Positions 30,289 through 55,961 of a stretch of 64,000 nt of DNA are shown in pieces. This stretch comes from Synechocystis sp. PCC 7509 (GTDB taxonomy: Bacteria; Cyanobacteriota; Cyanobacteriia; Cyanobacteriales; Chroococcidiopsidaceae), in contig NZ_ALVU02000001.1 in the NCBI RefSeq assembly GCF_000332075.2, positions 3,794,324 through 3,858,323 of the forward strand, given 5' to 3'. Numbering within the stretch: the stretch's first letter is position 1; each line of letters opens with the position of its first letter. Made by a program: the position numbers and the translations under genes. Below the pieces are notes generated by a model that had not been told where the DNA came from, searched no databases, and saw nothing but the letters and a program-made list of their open reading frames with translations.

Positions 30289-31278
30289 GTGAAAGTTGCT
30301 GTCTTCAGCACCAAGTCTTACGATCGCACTTTTCTAGAAGCTGCTAACACGCAAAGTAAACACGAGTTAGTTTTTCTTGAACCCCGTTTAAGTTGCGAAA
30401 CTAGCGTATTAGCTACAGGTTCGCAAGCGGTTTGCGCTTTTGTCAACGATGAATTAAACGCTCAAACTCTTAGCAAATTGGAAAGTTTGGGCGTAAAATT
30501 GATTGCTTTGCGATCGGCGGGTTTCAACAATGTAGATTTAGTAAAAGCCGAGGAGTTAGGACTAACTGTTGTCCGCGTACCCGCCTATTCTCCCTATGCT
30601 GTCGCCGAACATACTATAGGTTTAATTCTCGCTCTCAATCGGCGCATACCTCGCGCTTACAACCGCGTCCGCGAGGGAAATTTTTCTTTAGAAGGGCTTT
30701 TAGGCTTCGATCTTCATGGTAAAACAGTGGGGATCGTAGGTACAGGCAGAATTGGCACTATTACAGCCCAAATATTGCTTGGTTTTGGTTGCAAAGTGTT
30801 GGCTTACGATAATTCGCCTCCAGATAACAAAATTCTAGAATATGTATCGTTTTCTGAATTACTAGCGGCGGCGGATATTATTAGTTTGCATTGTCCTTTA
30901 ACTGCTGATACTCATCACCTAATCAACGCCAAAACTATAGCGCAAATGAAAACAGGTGCTATGCTAATCAACACAAGTCGCGGCGCTTTAATTGACACCA
31001 AAGCGGTAATTATTGGCTTAAAATCAGGTAAAATCGGCTATCTTGGCTTAGATGTTTATGAAAAGGAGGGAGATTTATTTTTTGAGGACTTCTCAAGTGC
31101 GGTGATTCAAGACGATCTTTTTGAGCGTCTATTAACCTTTCCCAATGTTCTAATCACCGGACATCAGTCGTTTTTCACTGCTGAAGCCTTAAAAAGTATT
31201 GCTGAAACCACTTTGTCAAATATCTCTGACTTTGAACAAGGACTACCATGCTCTAATCAAATTAAGATTCAAGACTAA
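30289..31278 (+). CDS. D-2-hydroxyacid dehydrogenase (D-lactate dehydrogenase-like)
   Basis: A 329-residue NAD-dependent dehydrogenase, probably reducing pyruvate to D-lactate. Seen: [36 protein letters not shown], the nucleotide-binding [20 protein letters not shown] with the substrate-binding Arg, DVYEKE, and [13 protein letters not shown] with the catalytic His. The residue set matches the D-lactate dehydrogenase subgroup (FFxxDhS-type region). It starts with GTG after a GGAGG-type ribosome-binding site. The substrate is inferred from the family. Confidence 0.9.
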
Positions 31279-34471: not shown

Positions 34472-36296
<1,825 letters not shown>

Positions 36297-37301
36297 ATGA
36301 CAAGTTCGCCGGATAGAGTGGTATTAATTGGAGTTGCGGGGGATTCAGGGGTTGGTAAATCCACCTTTTTGCGTCGGTTATCTGACTTATTTGGGGAAGA
36401 ATTTTTGACGGTAATCTGTTTAGATGACTATCACAGTTTGGATCGCAAACAGCGCAAAGAGACAGGAATAACTGCCTTAGATCCTAGAGCAAATAATTTC
36501 GATTTGATGTACGAGCAACTCAAAGCGCTCAAGCACGGTCAAGCAATCAATAAGCCCATATACAACCACGAAACCGGAGAAATAGATCCACCAGAGCATA
36601 TAGGGGCAAATCACATCATCGTAGTAGAAGGGTTACATCCTTTGTACGATGAGAGAGTCAGAAGCTTGTTAGATTTCAGCGTGTATTTAGATATTAGCGA
36701 TGAAGTCAAAATTGCTTGGAAAATTCAGCGCGACATGGAAGAAAGAGGTCATCGCTACGAAGACGTACTAGCGGCGATCAATTCTCGTCGTCCAGACTTT
36801 ACAGCCTACATTGAACCACAGAAAAAATTTGCTGACGTAGTAATTCAAGTATTGCCTACCCAACTACTAAAAGAAGACAAAGATCGCAAAGTATTGCGTG
36901 TCAGAATGATTCAGCGTGAAGGGATAGAAGGCTTAGAGCCAGTTTACTTGTTTGACGAAGGTTCAACTATTCATTGGACACCTTGTGGACGCAAGCTTAC
37001 TTGTTCTTACCCAGGGATGCAAATGTATTATGGGCCAGATCCTTACAGTCAAGATAATGTGTCTGTTTTAGAAGTAGACGGTCAATTTGATAACTTAGAC
37101 GAAGTAATTTATCTAGAAACTCACTTGAGCAAAACTTCTACCAAGTATCAAGGAGAAATGACCCATTTATTGCTGCAACACCGCGAATATCCAGGTTCAA
37201 ACAATGGAACGGGATTATTTCAAGTATTGACAGGTTTAAAAATGCGGGCAACTTACGAACGATTGACCGCCACAGAAGCCAAAATTGCCGCCCAAGTGTA
37301 A
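36297..37301 (+). CDS. prk: Phosphoribulokinase, with P-loop Cys replaced by Val
   Basis: A 334-residue Calvin-cycle kinase phosphorylating ribulose 5-phosphate. The P-loop is GVAGDSGVGKST, with Asp/His residues in CLDDYHSLDRKQR and the ribulose-5-phosphate binding set PIYNHETG and VVEGLHPLYDERVR. Light regulation in the family uses Cys19-Cys41 (in the P-loop and in ICLDDY) and Cys230-Cys236. Here Cys41, Cys230 and Cys236 are present but residue 19 is Val, encoded by GTT in GGG-GTT-GGT. The enzyme should still be active, but the N-terminal thioredoxin-controlled disulphide cannot form. Divergent from petH. Confidence 0.97.
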   Translation: MTSSPDRVVLIGVAGDSGVGKSTFLRRLSDLFGEEFLTVICLDDYHSLDRKQRKETGITALDPRANNFDLMYEQLKALKHGQAINKPIYNHETGEIDPPEHIGANHIIVVEGLHPLYDERVRSLLDFSVYLDISDEVKIAWKIQRDMEERGHRYEDVLAAINSRRPDFTAYIEPQKKFADVVIQVLPTQLLKEDKDRKVLRVRMIQREGIEGLEPVYLFDEGSTIHWTPCGRKLTCSYPGMQMYYGPDPYSQDNVSVLEVDGQFDNLDEVIYLETHLSKTSTKYQGEMTHLLLQHREYPGSNNGTGLFQVLTGLKMRATYERLTATEAKIAAQV

Positions 37302-37481: not shown

Positions 37482-40211
37482 ATGACCGCCAGTATTAACG
37501 ACTTACCCATCATTTACGACCCCAAAATCGCCGAACCCAAATGGCAGAAGTATTGGGACGATTATCAAGTGTACAAAGCTGACCCTAACCACGGGGGCGA
37601 ACCCTACTGTATTGTGATTCCACCACCGAATGTGACGGGAAGTTTGCATATGGGTCATGCGTTTGAAAGTACCTTAATTGATGTTTTAATTCGCTTCCAC
37701 CGAATGCAGGGGCGTAATACTTTGTGGCTTCCTGGAATCGATCACGCTAGTATTGCTGTCCACACAGTTTTAGAAAAACAGTTACAAGCGGAAGGTAAAA
37801 CTCGTCAGGAGTTGGGACGGGAAAAGTTTTTAGAAAAAGCTTGGGCGTGGAAAGCCCAATCCGGGGGAACGATTGTTAATCAACTCAAGGGTTTGGGCGT
37901 TTCGGTAGATTGGTCGCGCGAACGTTTCACTATGGATGAAGGGTTATCCAAGGCGGTAATAGAAGAATTTACGCGGTTGTTTGAGGAAGGGCTGATTTAT
38001 CGCGGTAAGTATTTGGTAAATTGGTGTCCCGCAACGCAATCGGCGGTCTCAGATTTGGAAGTAGAAAAGCAAGAAGTAGACGGTCATTTATGGCATTTCC
38101 GCTATCCGTTTGTAGATGATTCAGGTTTTGTGGAAGTAGCTACAACTCGCCCAGAAACCATGTTAGGCGATACGGCGGTAGCGGTCAATCCCAATGACGA
38201 TCGCTATAAACATTTAATTGGCAAAATGTTGAAGTTACCCATTGTCGGGCGCGAAATTCCCATCGTTGCAGATGAATTTGTCGATCCTACTTTTGGTACT
38301 GGCTGCGTGAAAGTCACTCCCGCTCACGATCCTAATGATTTTGCTATGGGTCAGCGTCACGAATTGCCAATGATAAATATTATGAATAAAGACGGGACGC
38401 TAAATGAAAATGCGGGAGATTTTCAAGGTCAAGATCGATTTGTAGCTAGAAAAAAAGTAGTAGAACGTTTAAAAGCTGAGGGTTTTCTAGTCAAGGTAGA
38501 AGATTACAAGCATTCTGTACCTTATAGCGATCGCGGTAAAGTACCGATTGAACCATTACTATCTACTCAGTGGTTTTTAGAAATCCGTCCTTTAGCTGAC
38601 AAAACTCTAGAGTTTTTAGACAATAAATCTTCTCCTCAATTTATCCCCGAACGCTGGACGAAAGTTTACCGCGATTGGTTAGTTAAATTAAACGATTGGT
38701 GCATTTCTCGTCAACTATGGTGGGGTCATCAAATCCCCGCTTGGTATGCTGTTAGCGAGACAGGTGGCGAAATTGCCGATAATACGCCCTTTGTAGTCGC
38801 TAAAACTGAAGCTGAAGCGCAAGAAAAAGCTATTTCTCAGTTTGGGCAAAATGTGCAATTAAAGCAAGATCCTGATGTGTTGGATACTTGGTTTTCCTCT
38901 GGATTATGGCCTTTTTCAACCTTGGGATGGCCAGAACAAACTCAAGACTTAGCCACTTATTACCCTACAGCTACCTTAGTTACAGGCTTTGACATTATCT
39001 TTTTTTGGGTGGCGCGGATGACTATGTTAGGCGGCCATTTTACTGGGGAAATGCCGTTTAAAGATGTTTATATTCACGGGCTAGTATTGGATGAAAACGG
39101 TAAAAAAATGTCCAAGTCATCCAATAATGGCATCGATCCATTATTGCTAATTGATAAGTACGGTACGGATGCTTTGCGCTATACGTTGGTTAAAGAAGTC
39201 GCCGGAGCGGGTCAAAATATCCGCCTAGAATATAACCGCAAAACTGACGAATCTCCCGCCGTAGAAGCAAGTCGCAACTTTACTAACAAGCTATGGAATG
39301 CTTCAAGGTTTGTGATGATGAATTTGGACGGTTTGACCCCGCAGCAGTTGGGACAACCGGAGACGGGCTTAGAAAGCGCCGATAAGTGGATATTGTCGCG
39401 TTTCCATCAAGCAGTAATTGAAATAAGTAATCGCATTAACAATTACGGTTTGGGAGAAGCTGCAAAAAGTTTGTACGAATTTATCCGGGGGGACTTTTGC
39501 GACTGGTATATTGAATTAGTCAAATCTCGCCTGCAACCGGAATCAACTTCCCGTAAAGCAGTACAACAAACTCTTGCTTACGTTTTAGAGGGGATTTTAA
39601 AACTACTACATCCCTTTATGCCCCATATTACCGAAGAAATTTGGCATACTCTGACTCAAAGTAGCGATCGCAACTTCTTAGGATTACAGTTGTATCCTCA
39701 ACCAGATCAGGCGCTAATCGACTTGGAATTAGAACATAATTTTGAACTAATTACTACTACTATTAGCAAAATTCGTAACCTCCGCGCCGAAGGAGATATC
39801 AAGCCAGGGGCAAAAATTCGGGTAATATTGCAAAGTGAAAATGCCAGCGAAATCGATACCCTAACTCGCATCGGACAAATTCACATTTTGGACTTAGCCA
39901 AAGCCGAAAGCTTGGAAGTTCTACCAAAACAAGCTACAGACTCTTTAGGAAATGTCATTTCTGGAGTAGTGGGGACGGTAGAACTCTTAATTCCTCTAGC
40001 AGGTGTTGTAGATACCGAGGCATTGCGAGGAAAATTGAGAAAAGCATTGGCTAAAGTAGAAATAGAAATACAATCTCTTTCTAATCGCCTAAATAACCCT
40101 AAATTTGTCGAAAAAGCCCCGGAAGAAGTAGTTAAGACTATCCGAGACAACTTACAAGAGGCTGAAAAACAAGCCCAAATACTGCGCGATCGCCTTGGCA
40201 ACTTAGACTAA
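37482..40211 (+). CDS. valS: Valyl-tRNA synthetase
   Basis: A 909-residue class I synthetase. The HIGH-type motif is [13 protein letters not shown], an editing domain contains [15 protein letters not shown] and TPAHDPNDF, the KMSKS motif is in [11 protein letters not shown], and [15 protein letters not shown] lies between them. The anticodon-binding domain is followed by a C-terminal coiled coil (about 840-905) rich in Lys/Glu that contacts tRNA. The length is normal for cyanobacteria. Confidence 0.98.
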
Positions 40212-45646: not shown

Positions 45647-46411
45647 ATTGACAGGTGGGAAAGGTTTTGTTGAGCTTGTAAGCTCACTGTTGAAGATAAT
45701 AGCGGTATTTGACTGTAAGCTTATGTTTCAATCCCTGATAGGGATTTGGATTAATTGAAATTAGACGTTGGATTAGAGTTTTTCTACTCAGATTCGTTTC
45801 AATCCCTGATAGGGATTTGGATTAATTGAAATGATTGGGAGTTAGCCGCAATGCGATCGCGTAATGTTTCAATCCCTGATAGGGATTTGGATTAATTGAA
45901 ATAAAAGTTAAATGCGATCGCACATTTTTTAGAGCGGGTTTCAATCCCTGATAGGGATTTGGATTAATTGAAATCCCAACTTCCCGGTGGTTGCGCTCCC
46001 AAAATTAGTTTCAATCCCTGATAGGGATTTGGATTAATTGAAATAAGTTATACGAACCCCAGCGTAAATTATGCCGGTTTCAATCCCTGATAGGGATTTG
46101 GATTAATTGAAATAAAGAATGAAATTTTAATGAGTCAGGAGACAACAGTTTCAATCCCTGATAGGGATTTGGATTAATTGAAATACGGATCTCAAAAGCA
46201 ATCGGCAAGAATAACTGAAGTTTCAATCCCTGATAGGGATTTGGATTAATTGAAATTTGCTGCTATATCTCCCAAGCACAGTTTTAAAATACGTTTCAAT
46301 CCCTGATAGGGATTTGGATTAATTGAAATTTCGGCTGACTGCCCATTGATAACCCGTTTAACAGCAGTTTCAATCCCTGATAGGGATTTGGATTAATTGA
46401 AATAATTGATA

Positions 46412-47360
46412 TAGCGCTACGGGAACACGTTAGGACAGTGTTTAAAGGCGGCATCTACACAATCATGAAAGTTGTCAAATTCGTTCCACCGCTGCCGCAT
46501 CCAGTTCTTGAGTACAAACCACCAATGTTCGATCTTGTTCAAGTCTGGAGAATAGGGGGGAAGATACCATAACTCACATCCCGCCTCTGCTACAATCTCG
46601 TCAATTGCCTGGGAGTGATGAAAACTTGCATTGTCAATGACGATAACATCACCTGGTCGCAATTGAGGGATAAGACACTGCTCTAACCACATCTCGAATA
46701 AGTTACGGTTACAGGAACCCACAAATGTCATTGGTGCAAACACTTTCCCTTGGCGTAGTGCTGCGATCCAACTGACACGCTCAGTACGCTTACCAGGTTT
46801 GAGAGCATAGAAGCGTTGTCCAACCTCACAATAACCATAGGGATAGTCATCTCGGTTGTCAATCCCTGCTTCATCAACATAGATGATTTGAGCAGCAGAT
46901 AAGGTCTGTAGTTGCTCCTGAAATCCTTGACGTTTTAACTCATCCCGCTCTCGGTATCCATAGGTTTTTTTTTTCGACTTGAGCCAAGCTTACGCAAGGC
47001 ATCACTGATGTTCTGCTGACTCACCCCTTCGCCCCACAACACAGCCATTTGCCCTTGAGTCTTGCCTCCATGTTGCTTCGCAAATTCACGAAACCTCTGC
47101 CAATCACTGATTTTATGTCGATTTCCCTGTTGATAGTGAGTAATCGCTTGACAGTTGCCAGTTTGTTCCTTGCGCTTCAGCCATAGGTCGAGTGTGTTGC
47201 GACTAATGTGCAACATCCGGCTCACATCACTTTTGCGTTCTCCTCTCTCAACTGCTGCAATCGCCTTTTGGCGCAGGTCTTCACTGTAAGGGGCGGGCAT
47301 AGGTATTGTTTGATACTCTCGTTTTTCTATTATATGTCTTAATATGAATTTGTAGGGCTA
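46412..47360 (-). mobile_element. IS630-family insertion sequence inside a CRISPR spacer
   Basis: About 949 bp with imperfect terminal inverted repeats (TAGCGCTAC at the left, the complement of TAGCCCTAC at the right) and a TA duplication at 46410-46411 and 47361-47362, the IS630/Tc1 target. Removing the element and one TA leaves AATTGA-TA plus 26 nt, a 34-nt spacer of normal size. The transposase appears intact, so the insertion is probably recent and possibly mobile. Confidence 0.9.
46417..47300 (-). CDS. IS630-family transposase, two frames joined by -1 frameshift
   Basis: ORF A (46935-47300, 121 residues) starts MPAPYSEDLRQKAIAAVERG, a helix-turn-helix domain with HISRNTLDLWLKRK. It runs into a stretch of ten A on the minus strand (T at 46965-46974). 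A -1 shift there continues into ORF B, which reads TYGYRERDELKRQGFQ, then IIYVDEAGID (first Asp), VIVIDNASFHHS (second Asp), LPPYSPDLNKIEHWW (Glu) and stops at 46417. The full DDE triad is present only in the fusion. This A-run frameshift is known for IS630 elements. No other disabling mutation is visible. Confidence 0.88.
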
Positions 47361-50300
47361 TAGCAATCCAAGACTCCCCAAAGAAAAGGTTTCAATCCCT
47401 GATAGGGATTTGGATTAATTGAAATACTTGAATTAATCTCTGATTATTTGATAATTGGTGAGTTTCAATCCCTGATAGGGATTTGGATTAATTGAAATTG
47501 TAGGCGGTCAGGCTGCAACTATCGATATAGTAGTTTCAATCCCTGATAGGGATTTGGATTAATTGAAATAAATCCCAGTGTTTGGATCTAAGGTTTGACG
47601 CTCAATGTTTCAATCCCTGATAGGGATTTGGATTAATTGAAATTACCATGCATCCTTCTAATGCCGATATAGACAAGTTGTTTCAATCCCTGATAGGGAT
47701 TTGGATTAATTGAAATAATTGGCGCTGATGAATATCTCCCTGAGTTGCACTAAGTTTCAATCCCTGATAGGGATTTGGATTAATTGAAATCATTGGTTAA
47801 AGTCTTAGTAAAAATAGCACTGCCTGTGTTTCAATCCCTGATAGGGATTTGTAGTAATTGAAATTACCGTTATGTCTGGATGGAGGGCAGGCAGCTAAGT
47901 TTCAATCCCTGATAGGGATTTGTAGTAATTGAAATCAGGCTACGATTCTGGTTTCCCCGGCGCTGCACCTTACGTTTCAATCCCTGATAGGGATTTGTAG
48001 TAATTGAAATTTGCGCCGAAAGTAGGTAGCGTATCCAAGTCTAGAAGTTTCAATCCCTGATAGGGATTTGTAGTAATTGAAATGATTTTCTAATCTTGTA
48101 AAGGAATCAAAAGCAGAGGTTTCAATCCCTGATAGGGATTTGTAGTAATTGAAATGCTCATCTATTAATTCGGTATAAGGCGAAGAATTGTTTCAATCCC
48201 TGATAGGGATTTGTAGTAATTGAAATTTTCTGGTGTTCCTGCTGCTGCTATGGCTATAGCTCTGTTTCAATCCCTGATAGGGATTTGTAGTAATTGAAAT
48301 ACATTTATATGCTAAAAATGGCAATTGGGCATAGCGTTTCAATCCCTGATAGGGATTTGTAGTAATTGAAATTTTCCCGATGAAAGTTTATACAGTTCTT
48401 TTAGGTGATGTTTCAATCCCTGATAGGGATTTGTAGTAATTGAAATGCTGGAAAAGCCAGATTTAGCGTACTTTTTGCCACGTTTCAATCCCTGATAGGG
48501 ATTTGTAGTAATTGAAATTTGTTTTCTTCTCCACTTAAAATTTCTTTTGTACGTTTCAATCCCTGATAGGGATTTGTAGTAATTGAAATTAGAGTAGACA
48601 TTAATATTATTCCTAGATTTGCAAGTTTCAATCCCTGATAGGGATTTGTAGTAATTGAAATCGAACTTTTGCAGTATTATAGAAATCATGGATCTGTTTC
48701 AATCCCTGATAGGGATTTGTAGTAATTGAAATATTTTGGAATCCACGCAGATATGAATGTTCAAGGGTTTCAATCCCTGATAGGGATTTGTAGTAATTGA
48801 AATCAAGTAGTTTACGCGATGCGCTTTCGCTTGCTCGTTTCAATCCCTGATAGGGATTTGTAGTAATTGAAATAGTGCGATCGCGTACCTTATTTAATAA
48901 AGTAGCTGTTTCAATCCCTGATAGGGATTTGTAGTAATTGAAATTTGAATACGATCCATAATTACTGCCTCAATTATTTGTTTCAATCCCTGATAGGGAT
49001 TTGTAGTAATTGAAATCAACTATTGGCTATTCTGTAAATGCGGTTATCAATGTTTCAATCCCTGATAGGGATTTGTAGTAATTGAAATGCTAACGCGAGA
49101 CATAAAGACTTTTCATCAAAGCACGTTTCAATCCCTGATAGGGATTTGTAGTAATTGAAATGAGAATTACCCCTAGCCGGTAATTATCAAAAGTGCTGTT
49201 TCAATCCCTGATAGGGATTTGTAGTAATTGAAATCATATCGTCATGAGGCGAAATCGGAATATTATGCGTTTCAATCCCTGATAGGGATTTGTAGTAATT
49301 GAAATCATTTACTCTTTGTTTATTAGCAACAGCAAAGCTCGTTTCAATCCCTGATAGGGATTTGTAGTAATTGAAATAATATTGAATAGCTATTTGCTTG
49401 TTATCTTTGCCCTGTTTCAATCCCTGATAGGGATTTGTAGTAATTGAAATTTCCATTGGCTCAGTAGATGGAAAAAAGGGAATTGGTTTCAATCCCTGAT
49501 AGGGATTTGTAGTAATTGAAATACTCATGCCCCAAATGCAAGTTAGAGATATGCAGAGTTTCAATCCCTGATAGGGATTTGTAGTAATTGAAATCTTAAA
49601 AATTTTACAAGAAATCCAGGCGATCGCTTTTGTTTCAATCCCTGATAGGGATTTGTAGTAATTGAAATGCTTTTTTATAAGCTTTTTATTTGTACCTCAA
49701 AAAATGTTTCAATCCCTGATAGGGATTTGTAGTAATTGAAATAATCTTGCATACACTTCGTGGGATTGAATGCCTTTGTTTCAATCCCTGATAGGGATTT
49801 GTAGTAATTGAAATACACGAACATATATATAGATCGCGCGCGTGTATTAAGTTTCAATCCCTGATAGGGATTTGTAGTAATTGAAATATTAGCTATAACC
49901 CTTATTAATTACGCACCTTAAGTTTCAATCCCTGATAGGGATTTGTAGTAATTGAAATCTGTTTGCGGCCCAACTTGTGGTTCTGGCAATTGACGTTTCA
50001 ATCCCTGATAGGGATTTGTAGTAATTGAAATAGTAAACTAATGAGAAACAACAACCCAGCACACCACGTTTCAATCCCTGATAGGGATTTGTAGTAATTG
50101 AAATTTACAGACTTTTGGTGGTATTTCTTCAGTTAACAAGTTTCAATCCCTGATAGGGATTTGTAGTAATTGAAATCTGGAGTTACATTTTCATCGCATT
50201 GTATATCATTTAAGTTTCAATCCCTGATAGGGATTTGTAGTAATTGAAATTGGTAAGTATGGAGATAAGTTGGTATACAAAATCCGTTTCAATCCCTGAT

Positions 50301-53300
50301 AGGGATTTGTAGTAATTGAAATATATATATTGAAGAATTAAGAGAATGGAAATTCAGCGTTTCAATCCCTGATAGGGATTTGTAGTAATTGAAATAAAAG
50401 GGTCACATACTTTTTCTTCAAGCATCGCATGTTTCAATCCCTGATAGGGATTTGTAGTAATTGAAATCCAAAGTATCCAAAGCTTTTCGATGGTTTCTGC
50501 CCCGTTTCAATCCCTGATAGGGATTTGTAGTAATTGAAATAATTGCTTCAATCTTTGAGCAATTCACTGAAAAAAAGGTTTCAATCCCTGATAGGGATTT
50601 GTAGTAATTGAAATAGGTATTGGTAGCGCTAATAATTGCTGCTTCTTTATTGTTTCAATCCCTGATAGGGATTTGTAGTAATTGAAATAGCCCCAGACGC
50701 AAATAAGCCTTTACTGTTTATAGGTTTCAATCCCTGATAGGGATTTGTAGTAATTGAAATGATGCCATGTACAACCCATAGTTGCTATCACTGCCAGTTT
50801 CAATCCCTGATAGGGATTTGTAGTAATTGAAATCTTTAAGATGCCTTTATTAAGGGCTAATTGCTCCGGTTTCAATCCCTGATAGGGATTTGTAGTAATT
50901 GAAATGTTTTTCGACTATTGCTTGCAGCATTTAAAATGGGTTTCAATCCCTGATAGGGATTTGTAGTAATTGAAATCTGAAAGAGTAAAGAAACGAAAGC
51001 ACACCAACACGTTTCAATCCCTGATAGGGATTTGTAGTAATTGAAATGTAGAGCTACCATGAGATTTAATATTACTATCTAAAGGTTTCAATCCCTGATA
51101 GGGATTTGTAGTAATTGAAATTTTTTAACAATTCTACCTATTTTAAGCCAATCTTGATGTTTCAATCCCTGATAGGGATTTGTAGTAATTGAAATTTTAC
51201 TCCACATAGTTGAGAGTATTCAGGATCAAAGTTTCAATCCCTGATAGGGATTTGTAGTAATTGAAATTACTAGCTAATACAGCTAATTGTTTAAGAACAT
51301 TAGTTTCAATCCCTGATAGGGATTTGTAGTAATTGAAATGTCTATCGCCCGTACTACGTAGCTGCTTACTTTATGTTTCAATCCCTGATAGGGATTTGTA
51401 GTAATTGAAATAGCTAGTTATTCGTCTGTGACTTCTACTGCTGCAATGTTTCAATCCCTGATAGGGATTTGTAGTAATTGAAATTAAGCTTCACTTATTA
51501 AGGCTTCCATCCCGATAGGGTTTCAATCCCTGATAGGGATTTGTAGTAATTGAAATGATGATCCCAACTGGCTTACCAGGAGGCGGTACAGGTTTCAATC
51601 CCTGATAGGGATTTGTAGTAATTGAAATCAGTGCAAGCTCTGTAACACCAAAGCTTGCACCTTAACGTTTCAATCCCTGATAGGGATTTGTAGTAATTGA
51701 AATCCTTGGGCGGCTAATTGATGACTTTCTGTCCATTGGTTTCAATCCCTGATAGGGATTTGTAGTAATTGAAATCTTGAATCACGAATTGCCGAGATTA
51801 AAGCAAAGCGTTTCAATCCTTGATAGGGATTTGTAGTAATTGAAATTAGGAAGTATTACCTTAGTTCTTTGTGTAAAGAAGTTTCAATCCCTGATAGGGA
51901 TTTGTAGTAATTGAAATCTTTCAAATAGATTATAGAACCGGTACAGGCGATCAGTTTCAATCCCTGATAGGGATTTGTAGTAATTGAAATTATCGTATAT
52001 ACTTGGATGGTGTTCTGGTACAGACGTTTCAATCCCTGATAGGGATTTGTAGTAATTGAAATTATAATCGATCTTCCCTTTGAAGTTCAGCAGTACGAGT
52101 TTCAATCCCTGATAGGGATTTGTAGTAATTGAAATCTTTTCTGTAGCCTTTCAGTATTGTATTAAACCCGTTTCAATCCCTGATAGGGATTTGTAGTAAT
52201 TGAAATTTTCAAAACTTTAGTTTGCTTTACTCTAGTAGTCTCGTTTCAATCCCTGATAGGGATTTGTAGTAATTGAAATCTGCGCAGTATTCACATATCC
52301 TAGAATCCTCTGTAGCGTTTCAATCCCTGATAGGGATTTGTAGTAATTGAAATACCTAATTGTGGAGTTTGAGCCAGCTTTGACAAAGTTTCAATCCCTG
52401 ATAGGGATTTGTAGTAATTGAAATGCTTTTTTGAGCCGTTGCAGCGCCGCCGGAAAATTGTTTCAATCCCTGATAGGGATTTGTAGTAATTGAAATTTGG
52501 TTTGCAGCCTTTACATTTTTGTCAAACCTACTGTTTCAATCCCTGATAGGGATTTGTAGTAATTGAAATGCAGTGCAAGGATTAGAATTTGTGAGCTTGT
52601 CATCAGTTTCAATCCCTGATAGGGATTTGTAGTAATTGAAATTGTTCCCTCATTTTTACGGTGCTACCTAGAGGCAGGTTTCAATCCCTGATAGGGATTT
52701 GTAGTAATTGAAATCTCACGAACGCGATCGCAAGATTAAAGAGGTATTCGTTTCAATCCCTGATAGGGATTTGTAGTAATTGAAATTACTTAATACCGTC
52801 ACTGTCAGTGGCGGTTATGTGTTTCAATCCCTGATAGGGATTTGTAGTAATTGAAATCTCATTACTCATTGGCGAATCAGCAAGAATTACTCCGTTTCAA
52901 TCCCTGATAGGGATTTGTAGTAATTGAAATCTTAGTAGAGGCTTTGCAAGCAGCTTGGGCATTTGTTTCAATCCCTGATAGGGATTTGTAGTAATTGAAA
53001 TTTGAGCAAGGAGCAGAGTACACGGGGAAAATAGGTGTTTCAATCCCTGATAGGGATTTGTAGTAATTGAAATCTTATCCTTTGATTGATTTAGGTATCA
53101 CCAAAGAAGTTTCAATCCCTGATAGGGATTTGTAGTAATTGAAATAGGAATAAACGGAAGATTGGTAACAAAATTGCTGATGGTTTCAATCCCTGATAGG
53201 GATTTGTAGTAATTGAAATCTTAATAGATGACCTAGAGAATAGCAAACTAAAAGTTTCAATCCCTGATAGGGATTTGTAGTAATTGAAATAGGAAACCTT

Positions 53301-55961
53301 TGGGGGTAATCAGCTAAAAAGGGAGTTTCAATCCCTGATAGGGATTTGTAGTAATTGAAATTTTCGACAATGAATACAAGGCGCTTCTTTTGTGTTTCAA
53401 TCCCTGATAGGGATTTGTAGTAATTGAAATCTTATTGCCGCCGCGATCGCCTATGCCGCAATCGAGTTTCAATCCCTGATAGGGATTTGTAGTAATTGAA
53501 ATATTGTGCTACTCACATATTCAGCTTTAACTGCACCTGTTTCAATCCCTGATAGGGATTTGTAGTAATTGAAATTTGCAAGTGGTGCAACAAATCCCTT
53601 GAGTTTCAGTTTCAATCCCTGATAGGGATTTGTAGTAATTGAAATGCCTTTAAGAGCGGCATCGTAAGCGCCTGAGATGTTTCAATCCCTGATAGGGATT
53701 TGTAGTAATTGAAATCTTTTCAAACACGATTTTCCCCTAAATTCAATATCGTTTCAATCCCTGATAGGGATTTGTAGTAATTGAAATGTAAAGAGCGTTT
53801 AGTTGATTCATTTGAATCGGCAAGTTTCAATCCCTGATAGGGATTTGTAGTAATTGAAATAAAAGCCTAGACTTCAGTTAAAAATCCACTATGTCGTTTC
53901 AATCCCTGATAGGGATTTGTAGTAATTGAAATCTGTCACTCAAAATCGCATAGTTCACGACTTAGGTGTTTCAATCCCTGATAGGGATTTGTAGTAATTG
54001 AAATTTCACCCCATCAGCTTCTAGTAAGTTGTTACTAGTTTCAATCCCTGATAGGGATTTGTAGTAATTGAAATATCTCTTGTTCACTGTTCAACTCGCA
54101 CCAAATAATAGTTTCAATCCCTGATAGGGATTTGTAGTAATTGAAATATTATCCCAATCAAAACGGGGATCGCTTATTTTGTACGTTTCAATCCCTGATA
54201 GGGATTTGTAGTAATTGAAATAGCTGATAGTGCAACAGTTCACCTTGGGGATTATGTTTCAATCCCTGATAGGGATTTGTAGTAATTGAAATCATTCCTG
54301 TTGTATGGCAATGATCTATCATCGGAGTTTCAATCCCTGATAGGGATTTGTAGTAATTGAAATATTTAGAGCCGAATAGAAGCCGCCTATCTTTTGCAGT
54401 TTCAATCCCTGATAGGGATTTGTAGTAATTGAAATTAAAGAAGAAGCAAGCAAGGAAATTAAAAACTGATGTTTCAATCCCTGATAGGGATTTGTAGTAA
54501 TTGAAATTGAAGTGCGCGATCGCCTTGGTAGTTTGAGCGATCCGTTTCAATCCCTGATAGGGATTTGTAGTAATTGAAATTTTTCCCCTCACCCACTTCA
54601 TCGTCTGTACGTCAAGTTTCAATCCCTGATAGGGATTTGTAGTAATTGAAATAAACGGCAAAGACTACACTTCTGCCCTAATTGAAAGGTTTCAATCCCT
54701 GATAGGGATTTGTAGTAATTGAAATTTGTCAATTGATGAGGAACGCGATCGCCAACACCTGGGTTTCAATCCCTGATAGGGATTTGTAGTAATTGAAATT
54801 TTACCTCAAAGCCCTATGTTTCTACTTAAACCTGTTTCAATCCCTGATAGGGATTTGTAGTAATTGAAATGGATACCATTTGATTGCGCCTTTATTTAAT
54901 AATGCCATGTTTCAATCCCTGATAGGGATTTGTAGTAATTGAAATAGTTGAACTTCCGCCAAACCCGTTAGCGCATCCTTGTTTCAATCCCTGATAGGGA
55001 TTTGTAGTAATTGAAATTTGTTGATAATTCTTGATTATTGCCTAACCTTTTGTTTCAATCCCTGATAGGGATTTGTAGTAATTGAAATTTTTTCTAGTTC
55101 CTTTGCCTTTTGGATTAAAGAATTGTTTCAATCCCTGATAGGGATTTGTAGTAATTGAAATAGATTACAGGCTTACTTTACGATGGTTCTAAATACGTTT
55201 CAATCCCTGATAGGGATTTGTAGTAATTGAAATCTTTTTGGGGGCATGGGAGGATCTAAAGATATTAGTGTTTCAATCCCTGATAGGGATTTGTAGTAAT
55301 TGAAATGGAAGTACAGAGATACTTTACATCTAATACCCTAAGTTTCAATCCCTGATAGGGATTTGTAGTAATTGAAATTAGCGGGTAGAACTGTTTGCCC
55401 ATTGCAAGCAGCGAGTTTCAATCCCTGATAGGGATTTGTAGTAATTGAAATAAATTACATTTTGTCTCAATTAGGTACTGCTATCGAAGTTTCAATCCCT
55501 GATAGGGATTTGTAGTAATTGAAATATCGCCTCTGATACCCTTGGCGACTCTTTGACCTTAGTTTCAATCCCTGATAGGGATTTGTAGTAATTGAAATGA
55601 CAGTTTTATACGCACTCGGTTATAGGCTACCAGTTTCAATCCCTGATAGGGATTTGTAGTAATTGAAATAGTTCCATACACCGATACAGCAACACCCAAG
55701 GACACGTTTCAATCCCTGATAGGGATTTGTAGTAATTGAAATCTGCTCTTAACGCCATGAAGGATGCCGATGATGCTGGGTTTCAATCCCTGATAGGGAT
55801 TTGTAGTAATTGAAATCGAAAGCGATCATGTATAAGCAGCAAAGGTAAATTAGTTTCAATCCCTGATAGGGATTTGTAGTAATTGAAATTAGGAGAACTC
55901 AAAACACTGCTTTTCGCCTATCTCGTTTCAATCCCTGATAGGGATTTGTAGTAATTGAAAT

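Follow-up and report, generated by a model that had tools for sequence, protein, structure and literature searches.

The closest described systems for the enzyme considered here are the class IA phosphoribulokinases (PRKs) of beta-cyanobacteria, among them that of Anabaena 7120 and those solved as PDB 6gve, which we take to be from T. elongatus, and as 6kev and 6hzk. The latter two are from S. elongatus (PMC9978339; this and the other papers named by accession are cited from excerpts). The N-terminal cysteine pair, Cys19 and Cys41, is described as widely conserved in class IA PRK, an exception being the red alga Cyanidioschyzon merolae, whose class IA enzyme is reported to lack one N-terminal cysteine (PMC9199185). 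Thioredoxin reduction of this pair has been described for plant-type PRK in Chlamydomonas numbering (PMC9978339), and a review regards the 19/41 pair as the basis of thioredoxin regulation and gives Cys19 and Cys41 as bridged in the structures of Synechococcus 6301 PRK and of the T. elongatus complex (PMC9025218). In Anabaena 7120, the thioredoxin target is reported to be the C-terminal pair, which Trx-m1 both oxidises and reduces; one of the cysteine pairs, the N-terminal one by the authors' reasoning, reportedly stays reduced in living cells, darkness included, and it is the C-terminal and not the N-terminal disulphide on which assembly with CP12 and GAPDH depends (PMC9199185). For Synechocystis, TrxA is reported to reduce the C-terminal pair but to act only minimally on the N-terminal one, although the latter showed potential-dependent redox behaviour in lysate (PMC13214033). 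The role of the N-terminal disulphide in cyanobacteria is therefore unsettled, as its cysteines are near-universal in the loci surveyed here and are reported as bridged in two structures, yet it is reportedly not the main thioredoxin target in Anabaena or Synechocystis. A laboratory mutant, A.7120_PRK-SCCC, is of particular relevance; by its name it lacks the first N-terminal cysteine and keeps the other three, and we infer that it is C19S. This mutant is less active than the wild type, yet it is oxidised and deactivated by Trx-m1, and in diamide it retains residual activity where the wild type has none, whereas the double mutant SSCC is inactive (PMC9199185).

The window, a stretch of 64,000 nucleotides of the Synechocystis sp. 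PCC 7509 genome, carries a prk gene whose product belongs with these enzymes and departs from them at one residue (Table 1). The protein matches NCBIfam PRK07429.1 with 490.6 bits against a cut-off of 236, also matches Pfam PF00485, and aligns to PDB 6gve with 602 bits across residues 1-329, so that full-length homology to cyanobacterial and plant PRK is evident from both the NCBIfam and PDB matches. It shares with the beta-cyanobacterial enzymes the frame of the P-loop (a Walker A motif GxxxxGK[ST], here GDSGVGKS), Cys41 and the C-terminal pair Cys230/Cys236, but it has Val19 where they have Cys19, the best three PDB matches (6gve, 6kev and 6hzk) all aligning a cysteine in this column; of the N-terminal pair only Cys41 remains, so the enzyme lacks the N-terminal disulphide. 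Valine would be expected to fit this P-loop position, as it does in other P-loop proteins, for example Rab GTPases. In its set of cysteines the PCC 7509 enzyme resembles the SCCC mutant, although a serine introduced by design there contrasts with a natural valine here, and it resembles the C. merolae enzyme in being a class IA PRK without one N-terminal cysteine, C. merolae being a red alga. Searches of the literature, which was available in part, did not bring to light any cyanobacterium whose class IA PRK lacks Cys19.

Table 1. Features of the prk locus, in coordinates of the window.
Feature	Position	Strand	Basis or comparison
prk, encoding a class IA (plant-type) PRK of 334 aa	36297..37301	+	ORF; NCBIfam, Pfam and PDB matches
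P-loop GDSGVGKS, residues 15-22	36339..36362	+	translation
Val19 codon, GTT	36351..36353	+	five sampled genus-mates: TGT in four, TGC in one
Cys41 codon, TGT (remaining partner of the N-terminal pair)	36417..36419	+	Cys in 223/223 loci
Cys230 codon, TGT (C-terminal pair)	36984..36986	+	Cys in 223/223 loci
Cys236 codon, TGT (C-terminal pair)	37002..37004	+	Cys in 223/223 loci
gene (presumably petH) for a ferredoxin-NADP reductase-like protein that has a CpcD linker domain, prk neighbour	34472..35770	-	context
valyl-tRNA synthetase gene, prk neighbour	37482..40211	+	context

An earlier note on this DNA had read the P-loop as GDSGVGKS with Val19 and the other three cysteines as kept. The translation bears out both readings, and Cys41, Cys230 and Cys236 are the only cysteines in the 334 residues; the interval that the note gave for the motif, 36342-36359, covers residues 16-21 only. 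The note had also held that this PRK cannot form the N-terminal disulphide by which thioredoxin controls the enzyme of plants and of most cyanobacteria. A Cys19-Cys41 disulphide is indeed impossible without Cys19, but the statement on thioredoxin control is not supported in that form, since work on Anabaena and Synechocystis, as excerpted, puts that control mainly at the C-terminal pair (PMC9199185, PMC13214033). Its suggestion that regulation of the CP12 type may be kept is plausible; the C-terminal pair is intact, and among the genes of this genome are those for a CP12 (an ORF of 73 aa whose four cysteines, inspected by eye, form one pair near each terminus), a GAPDH and the catalytic subunit of ferredoxin-thioredoxin reductase (FTR), so that the partners of a GAPDH/CP12/PRK system are present.

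Position 19 was compared across 223 class IA PRK loci, made up of 127 strong matches in 386 genomes sampled across the phylum (30 plus 97 taken by place), the best 80 of 548 named loci and 16 loci from the family of the window. L001 and L141, which duplicate the PCC 7509 gene, were excluded before this count, and 13 weaker paralog loci were set aside; the 223 still contain duplicates, since the contigs of certain named loci also occur in the genome sample. Cys19 is present in 222 of the 223 loci, the sole exception being the valine of the PCC 7509 gene, and, after removal of duplicates, in 208/208 distinct other PRK proteins; Cys41, Cys230 and Cys236 are each cysteine throughout, and P-loop residues 15-18 and 20-23 are identical across all 223 loci. 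Between residues 6 and 329, 116 columns are invariant in the other PRKs and the PCC 7509 protein breaks position 19 only; because 16 other proteins of the set break one or two invariant columns of their own, a departure at one column is in itself unremarkable. An additional cysteine, Cys47, lies six residues past Cys41 in 76 of the 223 loci, the residue being serine in 146 and asparagine in one.

Pattern searches extended this comparison to genomes. The P-loop with a Val codon was found in one of 388 genomes of the class, that of PCC 7509, and the P-loop with any codon at this position in 304/388 class genomes and 370/388 genomes of the order sample. Codons were inspected by eye among the roughly 150 matches listed per any-codon survey, and among these they were TGC or TGT except in PCC 7509, in three genomes with Ser19 and in extra matches from G421, G467, G522, G657 and G697. 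Genomes without an any-codon match (18/388 in the order and 84/388 in the class, family f25 among them) are uninformative on position 19, and the order, class and phylum samples overlap each other and the 223 loci. The earlier note had proposed an alignment of cyanobacterial PRKs as a measure of how widespread Val19 is; in the samples searched, it occurs in PCC 7509 alone, and Ser19 occurs in one other genus.

The second substitution emerged from a further pattern, in which the codon for P-loop residue 19 was required to start with a base other than T; this pattern is blind to T-first codons for residues other than cysteine, such as TCN for serine. It matched in 12 of 388 class genomes, and four of the 12 matches are class IA PRKs, namely that of PCC 7509 and those of G435, G520 and G622 (loci L277, L278 and L279), three genomes of genus g169 in family f22 in which AGC encodes Ser19. 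The Ser19 proteins are 333 aa long, and their cysteines, which they number 40, 229 and 235, correspond to Cys41, Cys230 and Cys236; a fourth sampled genome of g169, G557 (L280), has Cys19. The other matches were rejected as class IA PRKs, those of G581, G619 and G623 being PRK-family proteins about 45% identical across 182 residues, and those of G421, G467, G522, G624 and G629 showing no match to PRK. When 213 PRK proteins are placed on a tree, the Ser clade lies away from the Aliterella-like group that contains PCC 7509, and parsimony gives two changes at position 19. Thus, if the Val codon is real, the sequences indicate that Cys19 was lost at least twice, independently, and that Cys41 and the C-terminal pair were kept both times. 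The three Ser19 genomes show that loss of Cys19 is tolerated; with them, the N-terminal cysteine pair is a usual, not an absolute, feature of class IA PRK. Their serine is also the residue of the SCCC mutant itself.

Whether the GTT codon is real deserves attention, as the two- or three-base codon difference counts against a genuine substitution. GTT differs from the TGT of four genus-mates at two adjacent bases and from the TGC of the fifth at three; compared with the genus-mate locus L115, neighbouring bases are exchanged after a run of G, which can be written as one base gained and one lost a few positions away, as error-prone reads could give. A sequencing or assembly error, with TGT as the true codon and no Val19, would also fit the occurrence of valine in PCC 7509 alone among the genomes searched. 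Against such an error, the 14 ORFs compared in the surrounding 19 kb are open, and the assembly comprises 4.9 Mb in 4 contigs with 100% completeness. Codons of the 14 ORFs were compared with G387, and those of the 11 that could be aligned with G389. Two-base differences are common (125 of 366 non-synonymous codons versus G387), and within-codon base exchanges occur elsewhere (3/5566 codons versus G387 and 9/4473 versus G389, the Val19 codon included in both). Non-triplet gaps versus G387 occur as near-by pairs, in three ORFs; versus G389, one ORF has a near-by pair and the ORF at 30289-31278 has a single 14-base gap. The loss of Cys19 in three genomes of another genus likewise argues against an artefact. 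The comparison of neighbouring ORFs does not indicate an error at the Val19 codon, and we consider one unlikely.

The nearest named PRKs, among the best 80 of 548 named loci, are 94-97% identical in protein to that of PCC 7509 and come from an uncultured Aliterella sp., a bin labelled Tatlockia sp., Chlorogloea sp. CCALA 695, Chroococcus sp. CMT-3BRIN-NPC107 and Aliterella atlantica CENA595 (L033-L037). The Tatlockia bin (L034, JACCVJ010000145.1), with an Aliterella-like PRK at 97% identity, is probably mislabelled or mixed. By these PRK neighbours, the host appears to be an Aliterella-like cyanobacterium. In the tree the Val branch lies inside an Aliterella-like group of six proteins (support 0.99), and, because all five sampled genus-mates have Cys19, Val19 would have arisen on the PCC 7509 branch. 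For the same reason Val19 was rejected as a marker of the genus. Gene conversion from a paralog was rejected as well; the 13 paralog loci have alanine in this column, and the P-loop of the host's own paralog differs.

The presence of that paralog raises the possibility that the prk gene is decaying or being replaced, the main kinase activity having moved to a second PRK-family protein. The genome does encode such a protein (L002, 311 aa), and PDB 9qko, of similar size, was deposited as a 'cyanobacteria specific phosphoribulokinase'. However, prk has an uninterrupted reading frame on which purifying selection is strong, comparison with the five genus-mates giving dN values (0.017-0.040) far below dS (0.31-1.51), and just one of the 116 otherwise invariant columns is changed. 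Moreover, a second PRK-family match is found in 15 of the 19 genomes of the family, so PCC 7509 has no special back-up, and we hold a decaying prk to be most improbable. The paralog itself, an ORF at 1483-2418 of L002 about 138 kb from prk, has the P-loop GDSAAGKT and is probably the kind of protein solved as 9qko; a literature search on the 'cyanobacteria specific' PRK paralog found no paper.

We favour, as the probable explanation, a genuine lineage-specific change of Cys19 to valine in an otherwise normal and functional class IA PRK. The substitution, the remaining cysteines and the partner genes are read from the DNA, and the enzymatic and regulatory behaviour that follows is our inference. 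Without Cys19 the Cys19-Cys41 disulphide cannot form, and in the absence of this P-loop disulphide strong oxidation would leave the enzyme partly active and would not turn it off altogether. Because thioredoxin is reported to act mainly on the C-terminal pair in Anabaena and Synechocystis, loss of Cys19 need not end thioredoxin control, which would persist at Cys230 and Cys236, and the enzyme should still be inhibited when bound in a GAPDH/CP12/PRK complex. Given this work and the partner genes, the enzyme most likely still answers to thioredoxin and CP12, and what it would have lost is no more than the full oxidative stop at the P-loop; the PCC 7509 enzyme would then in effect be a natural counterpart of the laboratory SCCC mutant. 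Cys41 was probably kept for catalysis, by analogy with Anabaena. The inactivity of SSCC would explain its retention, and its presence is uninformative on a redox role.

Several points weigh against a genuine and functionally mild substitution. The near-invariance of Cys19 speaks against it, as the residue must matter for something and a neutral loss is not predicted. Valine differs from serine, and SCCC had reduced activity, which counts against reading Val19 from that mutant. In addition, the Cys19-Cys41 bridge that a review gives for two structures (PMC9025218, in excerpt) would assign the N-terminal pair a part in the inhibited complex, and the response of this pair to redox potential in Synechocystis lysate (PMC13214033) points the same way.

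The loss might alternatively be adaptive, protecting PRK from full oxidative inactivation in a lifestyle exposed to stress such as desiccation, high light or a lithic habitat. The behaviour of SCCC in diamide (PMC9199185) and two independent losses of Cys19 in cyanobacteria are in keeping with this, and some Aliterella are reported from desert stones and an Antarctic endolith, but others from ocean and fresh water (PMC12587747, both from excerpts), and Cys19 is kept in all five sampled genus-mates. We regard adaptive protection as improbable. A broader speculation, which is tentative and on the doubtful side, is that beta-cyanobacterial PRK does not need its P-loop cysteine for day/night control and retains it almost everywhere for a separate purpose, an emergency shut-off under oxidative stress, and that PCC 7509 (Val) and g169 (Ser) independently discarded it. 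If this were true, lineages that discarded the emergency switch would carry a PRK that is not fully switched off by oxidation. Natural PRKs without Cys19, together with their Cys19-keeping relatives in Aliterella and in g169, form matched pairs with which the role of the residue is directly testable. Although Val19 is a single residue in one genome, it offers, with the second genus, a clean natural test of the N-terminal switch.

The P-loop cysteine is also absent from PRKs of another type. Members of family f25, which we infer to be alpha-cyanobacteria, have a bacterial-type (class III) PRK with the P-loop GSSGAGT in 13/13 loci or genomes examined. These enzymes resemble that of PCC 7509 in lacking the P-loop cysteine, but they are a different PRK type and have no 230/236 pair, and the absence of the cysteine in f25 is unrelated to the loss in PCC 7509. 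A bacterial-type PRK with GSSGAGT, and no strong class IA match, was also observed in G282 (L251) of genus g75 in family f28, unlike G193 and G344 of the same genus, which have a class IA PRK. The class IA P-loop pattern was likewise not found in eight further g75 genomes (G482, G525, G540, G549, G573, G594, G602 and G614), whereas other g75 genomes match. Replacement of the redox-regulated PRK within g75 is possible, the alternatives being contamination, incompleteness or divergence.

Elsewhere in the window, a CRISPR array with 129 repeats of Rfam RF01318 (CRISPR-DR5) occupies 45725-55961 on the minus strand. It is interrupted at 46404-47388 by a transposase, presumably IS630-like, in two minus-strand ORFs (46417-46743 and 46935-47300).
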